A stretch of DNA of 39,629 nucleotides from contig JADFIT010000011.1 in the NCBI GenBank assembly GCA_022566515.1, positions 1 to 39,629 of the forward strand, given 5' to 3'. This DNA comes from Gemmatimonadota bacterium. GTDB taxonomy: Bacteria > Gemmatimonadota > Gemmatimonadetes > Gemmatimonadales > GWC2-71-9. Under the pieces are notes generated by a model. It made no database searches, was not told the DNA's origin, and saw only the letters and a program-made list of their open reading frames with translations. A program made the translations under genes and the position numbers. This document shows positions 24,545-39,467 of this stretch, in pieces (the first letter of the stretch is position 1; the number at the start of each line of letters is the position of its first letter).

Positions 24545-24793
24545 CTAACTTGCCGATACGCCTGGCGGCTTCTCCTCCTCCGCCACCGGCCGGAACCGGT
24601 GTACGGGCTTGCTCGTGCCGCAATCCCCGCACACCTCAACGGTTTGCCCGGTCATGGGCACAGTGTTGAGCTGTAACGGACCTCCACACCGCGCGCACTT
24701 CAGGGTTCGGTTGACGTTTCGTGTGACAAGATTTTCCCCGGCTCTCAACTCGTGGCCCAGAAGCTCCCTGCGGCGATCACGCTTCTTGGTCAT
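24545..24793 (-). CDS. small zinc-ribbon protein
   Basis: An 82-residue basic protein with one predicted zinc ribbon: CARCGG (residues about 33-38) and CGDCG (about 55-59), a CxxC-x18-CxxC arrangement. The N-terminus is very basic ([19 protein letters not shown]), which would suit nucleic-acid or ribosome contact. The start overlaps the floA stop (ATGA) and the stop is 11 nt before the DUF4442 start, so it is translated as part of this operon. No named family is recognised. Confidence 0.75.
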
Positions 24794-25719
24794 TCGTCCG
24801 ACGTACCCCGTGGCAAGGACCCCAGGTTGCCCGCGCGGAACGCAATCGCCATGGCCTCGGGAATCTTCGCCTCGGCTTCAACCACCTTCGCCCTCATTTC
24901 CTGAACCCGGGCCTTCATCTCCTGCTCGTGTGCCACCGCCATGGCCCGGCGCTGCTCGGCCTTCGCCTGGGCGATGCGCTTGTCGGCCTCGGCTTGGTCG
25001 GTTTGCAGCTCGGCGCCGATGTTCTTCCCAACATCCACATCGGCGATGTCGATGGAGAGAATCTCATAGGCCGTACCCGAGTCCAGTCCCTTCGCCAGCA
25101 CGGTCTTGGAAATCGCCTCGGGACTCTCCAGCACGGCCTTGTGGCTCTCGGCCGAACCAATGGTCGAAACAATCCCCTCGCCTACCCGAGCCAGAATCGT
25201 CTCCTCTCCGGCCCCACCCACGAGTCGCTGGATGTTGGCCCGCACCGTCACCCGTGCCGTCGCGATGAGCTGGATGCCGTCCTTCGCCATGGCGGCAACC
25301 TTGGGCGTTTGGATCACCTTGGGATTGACCGAGACCTGCACCGCCTCACGAACGTCGCGACCGGCAAGATCGATGGCCGCTGCCTGCTGAAACGCCAACT
25401 CGATTCCGGCCTTGTCGGCAGAGATCAGCGCCTGGACCACGCGATTCACGTTACCACCGGCCAGGTAATGAGCCTCGAGCTGATCGAGATCGAGGTGCAG
25501 GCCCGCCTTCGTCGCGTTGATCTGAGGATCGACGATCACCCTTGGCGGGACCTTTCGGAGCCGCATGCCCACCAGAGATCCCAAGCTGATTCGCACCCCT
25601 GACGCCCACGCCGCAATCCACAACCGAACCGGGATGTAGCTCAACAACAGCCACACGAGAACCAGTCCGACGAAAAAGAGACCGAGCATGACCGGCCCGC
25701 CTACGCTGATCAAATCCAT
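24790..25719 (-). CDS. floA: flotillin-like protein FloA (SPFH domain)
   Basis: A 309-residue membrane scaffold protein. An N-terminal hairpin or transmembrane stretch ([23 protein letters not shown]) is followed by an SPFH domain whose sequence is close to bacterial YqfA/Flo[67 protein letters not shown]. The C-terminal part is a long EA-rich coiled coil ([23 protein letters not shown]) ending in [12 protein letters not shown]. FloA organises functional membrane microdomains. In many bacteria an NfeD-type gene precedes it. None is seen here, and a short 23-codon ORF occupies that place. It heads an operon with zinc ribbon, DUF4442 and nitronate monooxygenase genes. Confidence 0.93.
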
Positions 25720-25722
25720 GGG

Positions 25723-25794
25723 TCACCCACTCACGATAGCGAGCAGCTTGGATTCCTCGACGATGAGGAATTCCTCCTTGCCCAGGTTGCACAT
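25723..25794 (-). CDS. possible short leader peptide before floA
   Basis: A 23-codon frame, MCNLGKEEFLIVEESKLLAI plus VSG, ends with TGA 3 nt before the floA ATG. The spacing would allow translational coupling. There is no convincing ribosome-binding site in front of it. It could equally be the decayed 3' end of an NfeD-like gene, which often precedes floA. This is weak evidence from position and length only. Confidence 0.2.
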   Translation of the reverse strand: MCNLGKEEFLIVEESKLLAIVSG

Positions 25795-25859
25795 TTTCCG
25801 CGACGGCTGTTTGTATCTCCACAAAACTGATGATCGTGAACGACAGATTGCCGCGTTGG

Positions 25860-26228
25860 TCAGGAACTTTCAGGTTCCGTGGACACGTCACGGACAATCA
25901 GATTGCGCTTACAGGTTTCACAAAAAACCCACAGAGCCTTCGTTCCGGGCACATCCGTTGCCGAATAAGCATCGATCTTCAACAGCGTACCGCACCGGGG
26001 ACAGTCCACCATGGTACCCGGCTTCAAAATAGCCGTTTTGATTAGCGTTATCTCTTCCTTGGAGAACGGCGCACTGGTGGTGCGCGGATCTGGTCTGGTC
26101 ACGACGGCCTCGGCGGTGCAAATCCCGCGCTCCACGCCCTCGACGTCATGGGCATGAACGAGCCGTTCGCCGCGTCTCGATTTGCAATAGTACACAACCT
26201 CCCTGAAGTTCCACCCGTGCCCGGCCAT
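25860..26228 (-). CDS. small CxxC zinc-ribbon protein
   Basis: A 122-residue soluble protein. The N-terminal half (GWNFREVVYYCKSRRGERLVHAHDVE) has no recognised family. The C-terminal half holds a predicted zinc ribbon, CPRCGTLLKIDAYSATD and then FCETCKRNLIV, i.e. CxxC-x22-CxxC. The start at ATG 26228 is uncertain. An in-frame TTG at 26261 would add 11 residues that include two more cysteines. It lies 80 nt after the next upstream CxxC gene on the same strand and may share its riboswitch-controlled transcript. Confidence 0.6.
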   Translation of the reverse strand: MAGHGWNFREVVYYCKSRRGERLVHAHDVEGVERGICTAEAVVTRPDPRTTSAPFSKEEITLIKTAILKPGTMVDCPRCGTLLKIDAYSATDVPGTKALWVFCETCKRNLIVRDVSTEPESS

Positions 26229-26308
26229 CTCTCCCAAGCAACATAACCACTCCTTACACAAGTGGGGGGCGATTCTTTAAGGAGGGGGGCTGCTCGACAG
26301 CTTTGACG

Positions 26309-26560
26309 TCACCGATCCTCTTTGACACGAAGCGTCACGCAAATCGGGCACACGCAGTCCACAGGGTGATTGTCCTTCACCATGAGCTTCCAAATTTCCT
26401 CGGCGAACCAATCGTAACGGTTCTTCGCCAGGACCAGTTTCTCCTGTCGAAATTCGTTCCAGTCCTCTCGGACGACATAGCGAAGATGATCGAGAAAATC
26501 ATCGATCGTCTTGCGGAGCTTCAGTCTCGTCCGCGGACGATTATTCCCGTGCTCGGACAT
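26309..26560 (-). CDS. small CxxC protein downstream of a c-di-GMP riboswitch
   Basis: An 83-residue charged, mostly helical protein: MSEHGNNRPRTRLKLRKTID, then DHLRYVVREDWNEFRQEKLV and WFAEEIWKLM, ending in a single CPIC knuckle close to another Cys (VDCVCPICVTLRV). One CxxC plus the adjacent Cys could bind metal within a dimer. No family is recognised. ATG 26560 is chosen because the frame upstream runs into the riboswitch leader. A cyclic-di-GMP-I riboswitch on the same strand ends about 200 nt upstream, so expression should respond to c-di-GMP. Its length and composition suggest a regulator or adaptor, but that is inference. Confidence 0.65.
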   Translation of the reverse strand: MSEHGNNRPRTRLKLRKTIDDFLDHLRYVVREDWNEFRQEKLVLAKNRYDWFAEEIWKLMVKDNHPVDCVCPICVTLRVKEDR

Positions 26561-26696
26561 GATACTCTCGAGGTTGAAGACGTGTGGCACCACGTTTCGT
26601 GGCCACAAGCCAACAGGGGGAGAGGAGCTACCGGCCGGACCCACGAGACGGCACGTCCTAGGCGTGCGTGTCTGCAACCACATGAGCTGTGGGTGA

Positions 26697-26723
26697 GACG
26701 GGAACGCCGCTTGGCATCCCGTC
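26697..26723 (-). promoter_or_regulatory. hairpin in the riboswitch leader (candidate expression platform)
   Basis: In the leader between the GEMM-I aptamer and the CxxC gene, GACGGGA (minus strand, 26723-26717) can pair with TCCCGTC (26703-26697). A partly paired GCC/GGC region lies inside. It is the strongest hairpin I see in this 200-nt leader. It lacks a T-run, so it is not an obvious intrinsic terminator. Its switching role is speculative. Confidence 0.3.
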
Positions 26724-26762
26724 CTCCATCTCGGAACGAGAGGGTGGGAATGTTCGTTTTTC

Positions 26763-26860
26763 GTGCCTCCGGCAGCCTGGCGATCTCCGAAGCCCTGTGG
26801 GCTGGGACCCATGGCTTTGCGTCCCACGGTTACCCGTGGTTTGCCTTTGTCAGCGGCACC
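26763..26860 (-). promoter_or_regulatory. cyclic-di-GMP-I (GEMM-I) riboswitch aptamer
   Basis: Read on the minus strand, the conserved core is GGCAAACC (26845-26838), then a 6-bp P2 helix CCACGG/CCGTGG capped by the GNRA tetraloop GTAA (26839-26824), then GACGCAAAGCC (26823-26813), then a P3 region ending near GGCTGCCGG. A closing P1 forms from GTGCC (26859-26855) with GGCAC (26767-26763). GGCAAACC, the tetraloop hairpin and GACGCAAAGCC in this order match the Vibrio Vc2 and other GEMM-I aptamers, which bind c-di-GMP. The next gene in this direction is the 83-residue CxxC protein. Confidence 0.9.
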
Positions 26861-27071
26861 CGACGCTTTGTCGGTTACCGAAGGACTAGTGTAATCTCCT
26901 TAGACGCCCGGCGTCGGTGATCGTGAGCACACTTTTGGGGCCGAGTGCGATACCGGCGTGAGCTCGGCAAACGGTGCCGGATCGAGATCGCGGAGCCCGA
27001 AGAGTAGGTGATTGTATCATATTGACCTCGCTCGAAACACATCCCCGTGATCGAAGGAGCAACCAATCGTT

Positions 27072-27596
27072 ATGCGGTTTGTGGGAGCGGCTGGAGCGGT
27101 GTGGGGCATCGCCGGTGTGTCCCTTCTCATCGGCGGCGCCGTCTACCGGCTGGGCTCGGTGGCCATCGACGCGTTCGCCTACCCTTTGGATTGGCGCCAT
27201 TGGGTGTTTCTCGTGGTGTTCTTGGTGTTCATGACAGTGATCGAGGGTTATCAAGGGTTCCAGCGGGGCTTCTCGCCCCGGGTGGCGGCCCGGGCGAGGT
27301 ACCTGGCGCGGCACCCGCGTGTTGTGCACGCCCTCTTCGCGCCACTCTTTTGCATGGGCTTTTTCCATGCGACACGGCGGCGGCAAGTCACCTCAATTCT
27401 GGTGACGACGGGTATCGTAGTGATGGTAGTGCTTGTGAGACAGTTGGCCCAACCGTGGCGCGGCATTGTTGATCTGGGCGTCGTGGCCGGGTTGGTATGG
27501 GGTCTCGTCGCCCTCGGCATATTCAGCTACTTGGCGTTCACCACCGAGGCGTTCAGCCAACCGACCGACGTTCCAGAGACTTCTGGCGATTCCTGA
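27072..27596 (+). CDS. multi-pass inner-membrane protein of unknown function
   Basis: A 174-residue protein with about four hydrophobic helices: VWGIAGVSLLIGGAVYRL, WVFLVVFLVFMTVIEGY, ILVTTGIVVMVVLVRQL and LGVVAGLVWGLVALGIFSYL. Between helices 2 and 3 lies a basic cytoplasmic stretch, QRGFSPRVAARARYLARHPR, followed by HALFAPLFCMGFFHATRRRQ. AAGGAG (27054-27059) lies 12 nt before the ATG. The upstream 210 bp is shared with the divergent riboswitch transcript, so the two promoters sit back to back. No family name can be given. Confidence 0.8.
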   Translation: MRFVGAAGAVWGIAGVSLLIGGAVYRLGSVAIDAFAYPLDWRHWVFLVVFLVFMTVIEGYQGFQRGFSPRVAARARYLARHPRVVHALFAPLFCMGFFHATRRRQVTSILVTTGIVVMVVLVRQLAQPWRGIVDLGVVAGLVWGLVALGIFSYLAFTTEAFSQPTDVPETSGDS

Positions 27597-27759
27597 CTCG
27601 GCGTCGGTTTCTCCAGCCCAGCATCACTCCTAGGGAATCCACAGCGCAAAGCGCACGGGCGCTTTCATGGGGCACTTCCTCGGCTTGTCAGGCAGCTTCA
27701 TGAATGTTATCGTACAACAGATACACGATCGATCGACACAGCGTCATACGGAGGAAGCC

Positions 27760-27966
27760 ATGACGGTCGTAACCGTCTCCCCAAAGTTCCAAGTCGTGAT
27801 TCCGCAAGCCATTCGTGAAGCCCTCGGCCTCGAGCCTGGGCAAAAGGTTAAGGCCATCCAGTACGACAACCGGATCGAGTTCATTCCGCTGAAGTCGCCC
27901 CGCTCTATGCGCGGCTTCTTGAAAGGCATTGACACCCGAGTAAGGCGAGATCCGGACCGCGTATGA
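27760..27966 (+). CDS. vapB: VapB-type AbrB/SpoVT antitoxin
   Basis: A 68-residue antitoxin. The N-terminal swapped-hairpin AbrB DNA-binding fold is clear: VVTVSPKFQVVIPQAIREAL followed by GLEPGQKVKAIQYDNRIEFIP. The C-terminal tail MRGFLKGIDTRVRRDPDRV should bind the toxin. The start ATG 27760 has GGAGG (27750-27754) 5 nt upstream. The stop overlaps the vapC start (ATGA). ATCGT/ACGAT arms in the upstream 60 bp may be an operator site, but the match is imperfect. Confidence 0.88.
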   Translation: MTVVTVSPKFQVVIPQAIREALGLEPGQKVKAIQYDNRIEFIPLKSPRSMRGFLKGIDTRVRRDPDRV

Positions 27967-28337
27967 ACGTCGTCGACAGCTCCGCGTGGCTCGAATACTT
28001 CGCGGATGGACCCAACGCCCCCTTCTTTGCCAAGGCGATTGAGGGCACACATCAACTCGTGGTTCCCTCCATCACCTTGCTCGAAGTGTTCAAACGAGTA
28101 TACCAACAGCGCGACGAGGGCGACGCGCTCCAGGCAATCGCCGTCATGGGACAAGGGCGGGTTGTCGATCTCGACGCGCCCCTGGCCCTCAGCGCCGCGA
28201 GACTCGGAGCGCAGCTGAAGCTGCCGCTCGCCGACAGCGTGATCCTTGCCACGGCACGGATGTTCAACGCCATGCTTTGGACACAGGACAAGGACTTTGA
28301 CGGATTGCCGAAGGTCAAGTTCAAGCCCAAGACTTGA
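27963..28337 (+). CDS. vapC: VapC-type PIN-domain ribonuclease toxin
   Basis: A 124-residue PIN-domain protein. The four acidic metal ligands are visible: D5 (MNVVDSSAWLEY), E41 (SITLLEVFKR), D91 (LPLADSVILATA) and D109/D111 (LWTQDKDFDGL). The length is normal for VapC. The start overlaps the vapB stop by 4 nt. VapC toxins cut tRNA or rRNA in a metal-dependent way, and the target of this one is unknown. The cassette lies at the left edge of the accessory part of the window. Confidence 0.92.
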   Translation: MNVVDSSAWLEYFADGPNAPFFAKAIEGTHQLVVPSITLLEVFKRVYQQRDEGDALQAIAVMGQGRVVDLDAPLALSAARLGAQLKLPLADSVILATARMFNAMLWTQDKDFDGLPKVKFKPKT

Positions 28338-38054: not shown

Positions 38055-39467
38055 GAGATATTGTCAAATGTTGTGGATCGAGGTTTGATCAAGCGGCAAC
38101 CTTTCGATCCGTTTTCTCGCGGTCAGTTTCCTGAATTCCATCGTTGAAACGTTCTCCCACCAACACCAGGGGTAGCAGTTGTGGAGCGTTGAGTTTCCGC
38201 CAGCGTTGCTGTGCCATCTCCAAAAGCTTGAACACCATCGTCAGCCCTTTGGTCCGAGAGCCCGCTCCCTTGGTCACGCGTTGACGTAACCGTACTGTCG
38301 CGAAGGCAGACTCGATCACGTTCGTCGAACGGATATGTTTCCAATGCTCGGCCGGAAAATCAAAATGGGTGTACAGGTATTCCTGGTCCCGCGTGAGCGA
38401 GGCGACTGCCTTGGGATACTTGGCCACATATGCGGAGTCGAAACGCTCCACCAGAGCCTCGGCCTCCGCACGCGACTCCGCATACATCATCTCTCGCAAC
38501 GCCCGCTTTGCCGCCGGCTGCATACGCTTCGGAAGCTTGTCCAACACGTTGGCCATCCGGTGCACCCAGTCGCGCTGCTGCTGCGTCGCCGGCCACACCT
38601 CCCGCACCGCCGCCCAGAACCCCAACGCCCCATCCCCAATCGCCAGCACCGGGGCCCGCATCCCCCGACGCTTCAAATCGCGCAACACCGCCAACCAGCT
38701 CTCCGTACTCTCCCGATAGCCGTCCTCCACCGCGATCAGCTCCTTCGTCCCGTCCGCCCGCGCGCCCAGCATCACCAGCGTGCACAGCCGGTCTTCCTCG
38801 AGCCGAATGTTGAAGTGGATCCCATCTACCCAGATGTACACATACTCCCTGTCGCTCAGATCTCGCCGGCGAAACTCCCGGTACTCATCCTCCCACACAG
38901 CCGTCAATCGCGTGATCGTCGTCGGAGACAATCCCGAGGCGTCATCACCCAGCAAAATCGGCAACGCCTCGCGAAAATCTCCCGTCGAAAGACCCCGCAA
39001 ATACAACACCGGCAATACCTCCGCCACCTTCGGCGACCGCCGCATATAGGGAGGCAAAATCCTGCTCGTGAACTGCTCCCGCACACGACGGTCATTCACC
39101 CGAGGCGCTGCGATCGCTACCGTCCCACAACCCAGCGTCACCTTGCGGGGACGGGCCTTCCCGTTACGCACCACCTGGGCCCGGCCCTCCTCGTCTCGAT
39201 CGCGCCGGTGGCGCTCCACATACTCCGCAACCTCCGCGTCCAACGCACTCACCAGCATCCGCCGAGCTCCCTCCCTGGCCAGCTCGTCCAGGTCCGTTAA
39301 CAGTCCGTTCCCTTTGCTTCCGGAACCATCCTCTATTATTCTCAACATCGGGTGGCGTGTCCTTTCTCCGGTCGTCACAACCGGATCTCGTGTGAATTTC
39401 AAGTGACTACACGAAAGGATACGCCGCCTTTCTCATTCCTCCAATCCACAACTTTCGATAATAACTC
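38055..39467 (-). mobile_element. IS256-family insertion sequence, apparently complete
   Basis: The element is about 1413 bp and carries one transposase gene. The terminal inverted repeats can be read: left end GAGATATTGTCAAATGTTGT (38055-38074) continuing GGAT. The right end read inward on the minus strand is GAGTTATTATCGAAAGTTGT (39467-39448) continuing GGAT. 20 of 24 positions match, with weaker similarity continuing inward. I see no 8-9 bp direct repeat immediately outside (left GCAGGATT, right CACCCCGA), so the exact ends may be off or the flanks rearranged. Confidence 0.85.
38089..39348 (-). CDS. IS256-family DDE transposase
   Basis: A 419-residue mutator-type transposase with all three catalytic acids: D175 (YIWVDGIHFN), D239 (AIGDGALGFW) and E346 (STNVIESAFATVR). 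The spacing is close to that of IS256 itself. The helix with HRMANVLDKLPKRMQ between D239 and E346 is the family's helical insertion. The N-terminal DNA-binding part contains LAREGARRMLVSALDAEV. ATG 39348 with GAGAAAGGA upstream is preferred. A TTG at 39402 would add 18 residues. The gene is full length without frameshift, so it may be active. Confidence 0.93.
   Translation of the reverse strand: MLRIIEDGSGSKGNGLLTDLDELAREGARRMLVSALDAEVAEYVERHRRDRDEEGRAQVVRNGKARPRKVTLGCGTVAIAAPRVNDRRVREQFTSRILPPYMRRSPKVAEVLPVLYLRGLSTGDFREALPILLGDDASGLSPTTITRLTAVWEDEYREFRRRDLSDREYVYIWVDGIHFNIRLEEDRLCTLVMLGARADGTKELIAVEDGYRESTESWLAVLRDLKRRGMRAPVLAIGDGALGFWAAVREVWPATQQQRDWVHRMANVLDKLPKRMQPAAKRALREMMYAESRAEAEALVERFDSAYVAKYPKAVASLTRDQEYLYTHFDFPAEHWKHIRSTNVIESAFATVRLRQRVTKGAGSRTKGLTMVFKLLEMAQQRWRKLNAPQLLPLVLVGERFNDGIQETDREKTDRKVAA

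Follow-up and report, generated by a model that had tools for sequence, protein, structure and literature searches.

The window, i.e. the whole analysed stretch of 39,629 nucleotides, comes from an uncultured bacterium whose assembly comprises 241 contigs totalling 3.59 Mb. Its minus strand carries a riboswitch aptamer of the c-di-GMP-I (GEMM-I) class, followed by a short gene, and the gene upstream of the aptamer is divergent. The features of the locus, in order along the aptamer strand, are as follows.

27072..27596, plus strand: divergent gene for a hydrophobic protein of 174 aa, bounding the promoter region of the aptamer (coding score 31; 93% DNA identity to the congener G002).
26767..26854, minus strand: c-di-GMP-I (GEMM-I) aptamer, scoring best with the c-di-GMP-I-GGC model RF03167 (87 of 88 bases kept in G002).
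26561..26766, minus strand: structured linker of 206 nt, a putative expression platform (fold z-score −2.43; alternative helix of 9 bp).
26309..26560, minus strand: gene for an 83-aa protein built of two long helices plus a Cys-containing tail (all 12 invariant columns of its family present; G002 ortholog 91% identical).
25860..26228, minus strand: 122-codon ORF with CxxC pairs (coding score 0.06 per codon; best Pfam E-value 0.00086, below the family cut-off).
25720..25790, minus strand: groES remnant recognized in translation, comprising the last ~21 codons, NLGKEEFLIVEESKLLAIVSG-stop, and abutting floA.
24790..25719, minus strand: floA, encoding a flotillin-like protein, a possible distal target (PF12127 FloA, E-value 1e-148).

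The gap between the aptamer and the divergent gene is 217 nt long (26855–27071). Since the upstream gene is divergent, the aptamer RNA either starts within this gap or represents antisense read-through. Downstream, the first ORF of coding character encodes the 83-aa protein and lies 206 nt beyond the aptamer. Read from the sequence alone, this layout fits a 5’-leader position. The first-pass annotation had described the aptamer as the leader of the 83-residue gene, and both the divergent orientation of the upstream gene and the place of the 83-aa ORF as the first one downstream are in line with that position. Two further observations concern the surroundings. Near the rearranged block described below, at 27667–28337 of the plus strand, an AbrB-like gene is paired with a PIN-domain-like gene, by eye resembling a VapBC-like toxin-antitoxin module. 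An ORF resembling, also by eye, an IS256-type transposase occupies 38089–39402 of the minus strand.

The whole window was searched with cmscan. The only match above the cut-off on both strands was c-di-GMP-I-GGC (RF03167) at 26854–26767 of the minus strand, with a score of 67.4 bits (cut-off 59, E-value 5.4e-14), covering model positions 1–80 of 80 without truncation. The same minus-strand site scored 66.5 bits with RF01051 (cut-off 35). Membership in the c-di-GMP-I class was judged by a full-length score above the curated cut-off, which was obtained for both models, and none of 14 well-known genomes used as a control gave a match with either. The aptamer carries the GGCAAACC core, a GUAA loop (of the GNRA type) on P2, and GACGCAAAGCC. 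In c-di-GMP-I riboswitches such a P2 tetraloop docks into a receptor in P3. Thus the near-textbook c-di-GMP-I core proposed from the letters is borne out by the two scores and the motifs. The covariance-model check on the minus strand, suggested at the same time, has been run with the Rfam models and yielded a match above the cut-off; the place given for the aptamer (26763–26860) was right, and its exact extent is 26767–26854. By eye, in the RF03167 alignment, the equivalents of the Vc2 residues G20, A47 and C92 are all present. Contact of c-di-GMP by these Vc2 residues is described in PMC4744006, and A20 is given as the mark of the cGAMP-type GEMM-Ib in PMC6456294. The equivalent of position 20 in the window is G. 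Hence the cGAMP type was rejected, and, as judged from the aptamer sequence, c-di-GMP is the predicted ligand. With 14 GGDEF matches, the window genome is probably able to make c-di-GMP.

The linker is folded more strongly than shuffled sequences (three of 200 shuffles were equally good). In the predicted folds of the free RNA of both species, linker positions 26634–26626 (window numbering) tend to form the 9-bp alternative helix with 26777–26769, the 3’ closing strand of the aptamer; the pair probability is ~0.55 in the window and 0.91–0.99 in G002. This helix would compete with P1 and is a candidate switch in the folding model. When the linker is folded without the aptamer, the mean accessibility of the start site goes from 0.36 to 0.50 in the window and from 0.40 to 0.33 in G002. 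As the predicted effect disagrees between the two species, we claim no direction of switching. Between the aptamer and the ATG the minus strand contains no site resembling an intrinsic terminator, and a terminator was accordingly rejected as the expression platform; control would therefore most likely be translational or exerted through Rho. At the start of the 83-aa ORF, GAGAG is found by eye at a spacing like that of other genes in the order. A consensus scan gave no σ70-like promoter for the aptamer transcript, and no σ54-like GG-N10-GC site was found at the aptamer.

Two other contents of the linker were considered and rejected. A permissive Rfam scan of 25800–27200 revealed nothing beyond the aptamer, with no further RNA family in the linker at E-values up to 5. 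A longer protein beginning inside the linker was rejected, given that the frames before the ATG are not conserved from one species to the other and that the linker has a non-coding profile: the codon-usage score is −7.3 for the linker in the same frame, against +17.3 (0.21 per codon) for the 83-aa ORF. With 206 nt to the first gene, the linker is long compared with c-di-GMP-I riboswitches generally and with many linkers to protein targets in the order (often ~20 nt).

The 83-aa ORF starts with the ATG at 26560 and its stop lies at 26309. The protein contains the cysteines C69, C71 and C74 (C-V-C-P-I-C), nine residues from the C-terminus. The gene had been correctly recognized as such, but the label CxxC understates a motif of three cysteines, and describing the protein as ending in CVCPIC overstates how close to the terminus this motif lies. 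Neither Pfam nor, above the cut-off, NCBIfam provided a family for the protein. Its AlphaFold2 model has helices at residues 8–31, 39–62 and 72–82 at moderate confidence (mean pLDDT 76, pTM 0.58). Structural relatives were sought with Foldseek, and no PDB fold matched at E-value ≤0.001 (110 did at E-values up to 10).

Relatives of the protein at ~30% identity, mostly one per genome, were found in 35 of 101 related genomes and in 45 of 102 genomes of the family, the latter set overlapping the former. GTDB contigs provided 42 loci with members, 41 of them titled Gemmatimonad- and one titled "bacterium". The alignment of 19 members (A1) has 12 invariant columns. All of them are present in the window copy, where the invariant residues of the two-helix core are R10, L15, R16, D20, H25, R27, A45, R48, W51, A53, E55 and W57. 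The window copy differs from the aligned family in its 26–34% identity, one extra residue in the inter-helix turn, the Cys-containing tail, the other locus and the riboswitch leader. In all ten relatives read with a gene finder the small gene adjoins a DUF2268-like gene, and in six of them an mnmE-like gene lies on its other side; both neighbours are also found at contig C168 of the window genome. The Pfam names of this neighbourhood come from one example (L043), the other loci being assigned by sequence resemblance. The window copy lies away from the DUF2268 place, and the second copy in the same genome, at C168, occupies it. Because the family sits beside DUF2268 elsewhere and a copy of the original type is kept at C168, the window protein is, by neighbourhood and alignment, a diverged duplicate (paralog) of a Gemmatimonadota family of small helical proteins, with a Cys tail.

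The survey for repeated occurrence of this family behind GEMM aptamers, proposed earlier, has been carried out and spoke against it. Among 73 member loci, which were drawn from two collections with partly the same genomes, the aptamer-core pattern was found beside a member in the window and in G002 only; the pattern recovers 46 of 60 known aptamer loci, and a diverged aptamer could be missed. No aptamer was added by the 101 relatives, the 102 family genomes or the GTDB contigs, and the 83-aa family was rejected as a recurrent GEMM target. A new recurrent family of c-di-GMP output proteins is not supported.

Among the other three genomes of the genus that were searched, the locus was found in G002 only. 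Between the window and G002 identity amounts to 87 of 88 positions in the aptamer, 192 of 207 columns in the linker, 238 of 252 in the 83-aa ORF, 172 of 186 in the upstream gap and 319 of 371 in the zinc-ribbon ORF (25860–26228). The aptamer therefore has one changed base of 88 compared with ~7% in the flanks (P ~0.011 for zero or one change at the flank rate). The 83-aa ORF shows seven non-synonymous and four synonymous codon changes and one codon indel, with all three cysteines kept; the divergent 174-aa gene shows eight and 23, respectively. Given the 87 conserved aptamer bases and the seven versus four codon changes, the aptamer is clearly held and the 83-aa ORF weakly held, the window copy being under weak purifying selection.

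The 25860–26228 ORF resembles zinc-ribbon families only weakly, no match reaching the cut-off of its family. In G002 its DNA is 86% identical, with frame-breaking gaps (the frameshift was identified by eye on the alignment), and its coding score is near zero. It is probably decaying or not a gene. Consequently, the second small zinc-ribbon gene of the first-pass annotation is probably not a conserved gene. The proposal that both small proteins are new c-di-GMP output factors is weak, since one belongs to a family that is not recurrent behind aptamers and the other is probably unconserved.

Farther along the aptamer strand lie two features missing from the earlier account, the groES remnant and floA. 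NLGKEEFLIVEESKLLAIVSG-stop resembles the C-terminal residues of GroES from the congeners G001 and G003, in both of which an intact groES directly precedes floA (the G003 copy is Cpn10 by Pfam). The counterpart of the remnant in G002 is frameshifted. As the remnant precedes floA and the groES-floA pair is intact in congeners, the block comprising the aptamer, the 83-aa gene and the zinc-ribbon ORF sits where most of groES was. This arrangement raises the question of which gene would be the target. The aptamer may be real and floA the gene that matters, c-di-GMP setting the level of the flotillin-like scaffold, with the 83-aa and zinc-ribbon ORFs as passengers. Indeed, no gene before floA on this strand is both well conserved and high-scoring, and of groES, its usual partner, there is just a remnant, precisely at the block; constraint on the 83-aa ORF is weak, and the zinc-ribbon ORF is broken in G002. 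However, ~1 kb separates the aptamer from floA, conservation of the linker extends to the start of the 83-aa ORF, whose cysteines are retained, and an aptamer was seen with no floA elsewhere, groES preceding floA in G001 and G003. On balance we regard floA as an unlikely sole target. The window genome has one more floA-like gene, at G000:C185:12370-13208, with ~77% DNA identity to that at 24790–25719 (minus strand) over the matched part.

RF03167 matched 42 of 61 relatives at E-values up to 0.001 (20 above the cut-off), and RF01051 matched 80 of 102 family genomes at E-values up to 0.001 (79 above the cut-off). The targets among the loci that were read include large Ig-like lipoproteins (Big_2), pilins, subtilase-like proteins, STAS proteins and a non-coding RNA. 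In some genomes the aptamers form arrays of two or three, for example at 1984, 2141 and 2298 of G030:C36. Tandem c-di-GMP-I aptamers were observed at G030:C36:1984-2386 (L071), G030:C3:4760-5162 (L072), G022:C246 (L074), G022:C176 (L075) and G028:C77; L071, L072 and L075 precede long lipoprotein-like genes with Ig-like repeats (by eye). STAS-domain genes follow c-di-GMP-I aptamers at L010 (where Pfam identifies the STAS domain), L029, L030 and L081, loci that represent two families of the order, and in L030 and L081 the STAS gene is followed by that of an ABC transporter ATPase.

The non-coding target was found through the 14-base motif GGTTCTAGGGCGCA, which is present in a single copy in each of 33 among 288 genomes of the order (10 of 288 for the reversed control). 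In 30 loci from these 33 genomes the motif is the loop of a hairpin that covaries and has a terminator behind it. In the hairpin 98.8% of cells are paired and 12 of 25 pairs are changed on both sides, with no equally good alignment among 500 shuffles; these counts lean to the favourable side because the structure was derived from the same alignment. The derived model matches 27 of 395 genomes of the phylum, all of them in the family to which the window belongs, the window genome itself not being among them. No Rfam family matched the hairpin above its cut-off. The c-di-GMP aptamer core precedes the hairpin in 24 of the 30 loci, and 23 of these 24 have a σ54-like site 27–32 nt upstream of the core (background: 77 of 20000 random positions). 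An extra terminator-like hairpin lies between the aptamer and the hairpin in 12 loci, and the final terminator, a strong one, is present in 30 of 30. Four aptamer-free loci (L203, L204, L209 and L211) keep both the σ54-like site and the hairpin; L207 is truncated at the end of its contig, and L215 lacks both the aptamer and a nearby site. In our interpretation, a c-di-GMP switch was either added to or lost from this small RNA gene, which is a candidate for a c-di-GMP-controlled non-coding output. The loci are L186–L215, with the motif at ~1501–1514 in most, and also L016, L023, L073 and L142; L204:1477-1566, without an aptamer, and L205:1477-1566, with one, make an example pair. Neighbours of the small RNA gene are those for glycerate kinase, purA and a pyridine-nucleotide oxidoreductase. 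According to PMC3627812, the merRNA of Bdellovibrio bacteriovorus is 445 nt long, and the authors did not detect it outside Bdellovibrio. Like the small RNA, it joins a c-di-GMP aptamer to an RNA that lacks an ORF; the small RNA differs in its shorter length, in a conserved hairpin of its own and in existing both with and without an aptamer.

Could the window aptamer likewise act as RNA alone, as a sponge or small regulator of the merRNA kind or like the aptamer-headed small RNA of the sister genera? Its linker is structured and conserved (z −2.43), and aptamer-headed non-coding RNAs do exist in the same bacterial family. Yet the window genome lacks that small RNA as well as its σ54-like site, and no intrinsic terminator precedes the ATG, after which a genuine member of a protein family follows. 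A merRNA-like RNA has its own terminator and no protein gene downstream, and the window locus shows neither trait. We consider such a function very improbable here. The occurrence of the small RNA with and without the aptamer is in turn a sign that these aptamers change targets.

The origin of the window aptamer was approached by comparing 65 distinct aptamers. After the G002 ortholog, the closest ones are L002, L022, L011, L138, L105 and L084, of which L002 belongs to the window genome itself, L022 to G003 from the same genus, and L011 to G008. Pilin- or prepilin-like genes follow five of these six (L002, L022, L011, L105 and L084), the gene behind L138 being unassigned; the pilin of the L002/L065 locus was identified by Pfam (N_methyl), those of the other four by eye. 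The one further aptamer in the window genome (C136:6364-6445) precedes a gene for a prepilin-like protein of 599 aa and a pilin gene (N_methyl). Hence, after the ortholog, the aptamers closest to that of the window are mostly pilin and prepilin ones (L065/L002, L068/L022, L083/L011, L134/L105) of the same genus and family. Long linkers also occur at the pilin-type loci L065 and L134 (~136 and ~304 nt, respectively). In contrast to those loci, neither a pilin nor another pilus gene follows the aptamer of the window.

The most likely explanation is that a pilus-type switch was recruited by relocation to the small gene, perhaps to floA as well. In a form to which we assign a probability of about 0.6, a pilus-type riboswitch was relocated to the place of groES upstream of floA and now heads the transcript of the 83-aa gene. 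An aptamer of the type IV pilus type would have moved into the groES place and come to lie beside a duplicated copy of the small helical gene before two sister species of Gemmatimonadota separated, in their common ancestor. The transcript would start in the 217-nt divergent gap and contain the aptamer, the linker, the 83-aa ORF and possibly floA. Binding of c-di-GMP, as predicted, would stabilize P1; in the ligand-free state the 3’ strand of P1 would pair with the linker ~130 nt further on, rearranging the linker together with the ribosome site of the 83-aa ORF. Counted against relocation and control are the 206-nt linker, the lack of a consistent direction in start-site accessibility, the absence of a promoter by the scan, the weak constraint on the ORF and the restriction to two genomes.

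The same pilus-operon affinity of the nearest aptamers would also suit a relic, that is, an aptamer carried along in a rearrangement, still folded and controlling nothing useful. The groES and zinc-ribbon ORFs are broken within the block, indels between the window and G002 are found at both edges of the segment with the aptamer, the 83-aa gene and the zinc-ribbon ORF, and the region upstream of the aptamer bears a 59-nt insertion in G002. A relic is nevertheless hard to reconcile with 87 of 88 aptamer positions kept despite ~7% divergence of the linked sequence (P ~0.011), and we deem it improbable, about as much so as the case for floA alone.

Relocation to the small gene thus remains the preferred reading. 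Like the RF01051 and RF03167 riboswitches, that of the window matches both models at full length and has the GNRA-capped P2, the core motifs and a layout that fits a leader position; unlike the known ones, it precedes no gene known to act in motility, pili, matrix formation or turnover of c-di-GMP. The riboswitch is ordinary, and what is unusual is its target, in a recent pairing confined to two related genomes. In the open-licence literature we found no report of a c-di-GMP riboswitch linked to flotillin and none of a c-di-GMP riboswitch for Gemmatimonad-, the mentions of riboswitches with Gemmatimonad- apparently concerning other subjects. It is rather doubtful that in both species a pilus-type riboswitch moved into the groES-floA locus places two proteins, a helical adaptor with a Cys tail and a flotillin-like scaffold, under joint control of c-di-GMP. 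If true, this would link the second messenger to membrane organization and provide an example of riboswitches moving between unrelated targets. On the preferred reading, the locus presents a change of aptamer target with its pieces still visible: a pilus operon as the likely type of source, a broken groES ahead of floA as the landing site, and the duplicated gene. A working switch would give the first handle on a Gemmatimonadota protein family without known function. The aptamer-headed small RNA of the sister genera is a more novel lead than the window switch and, if expressed, would be a real advance.
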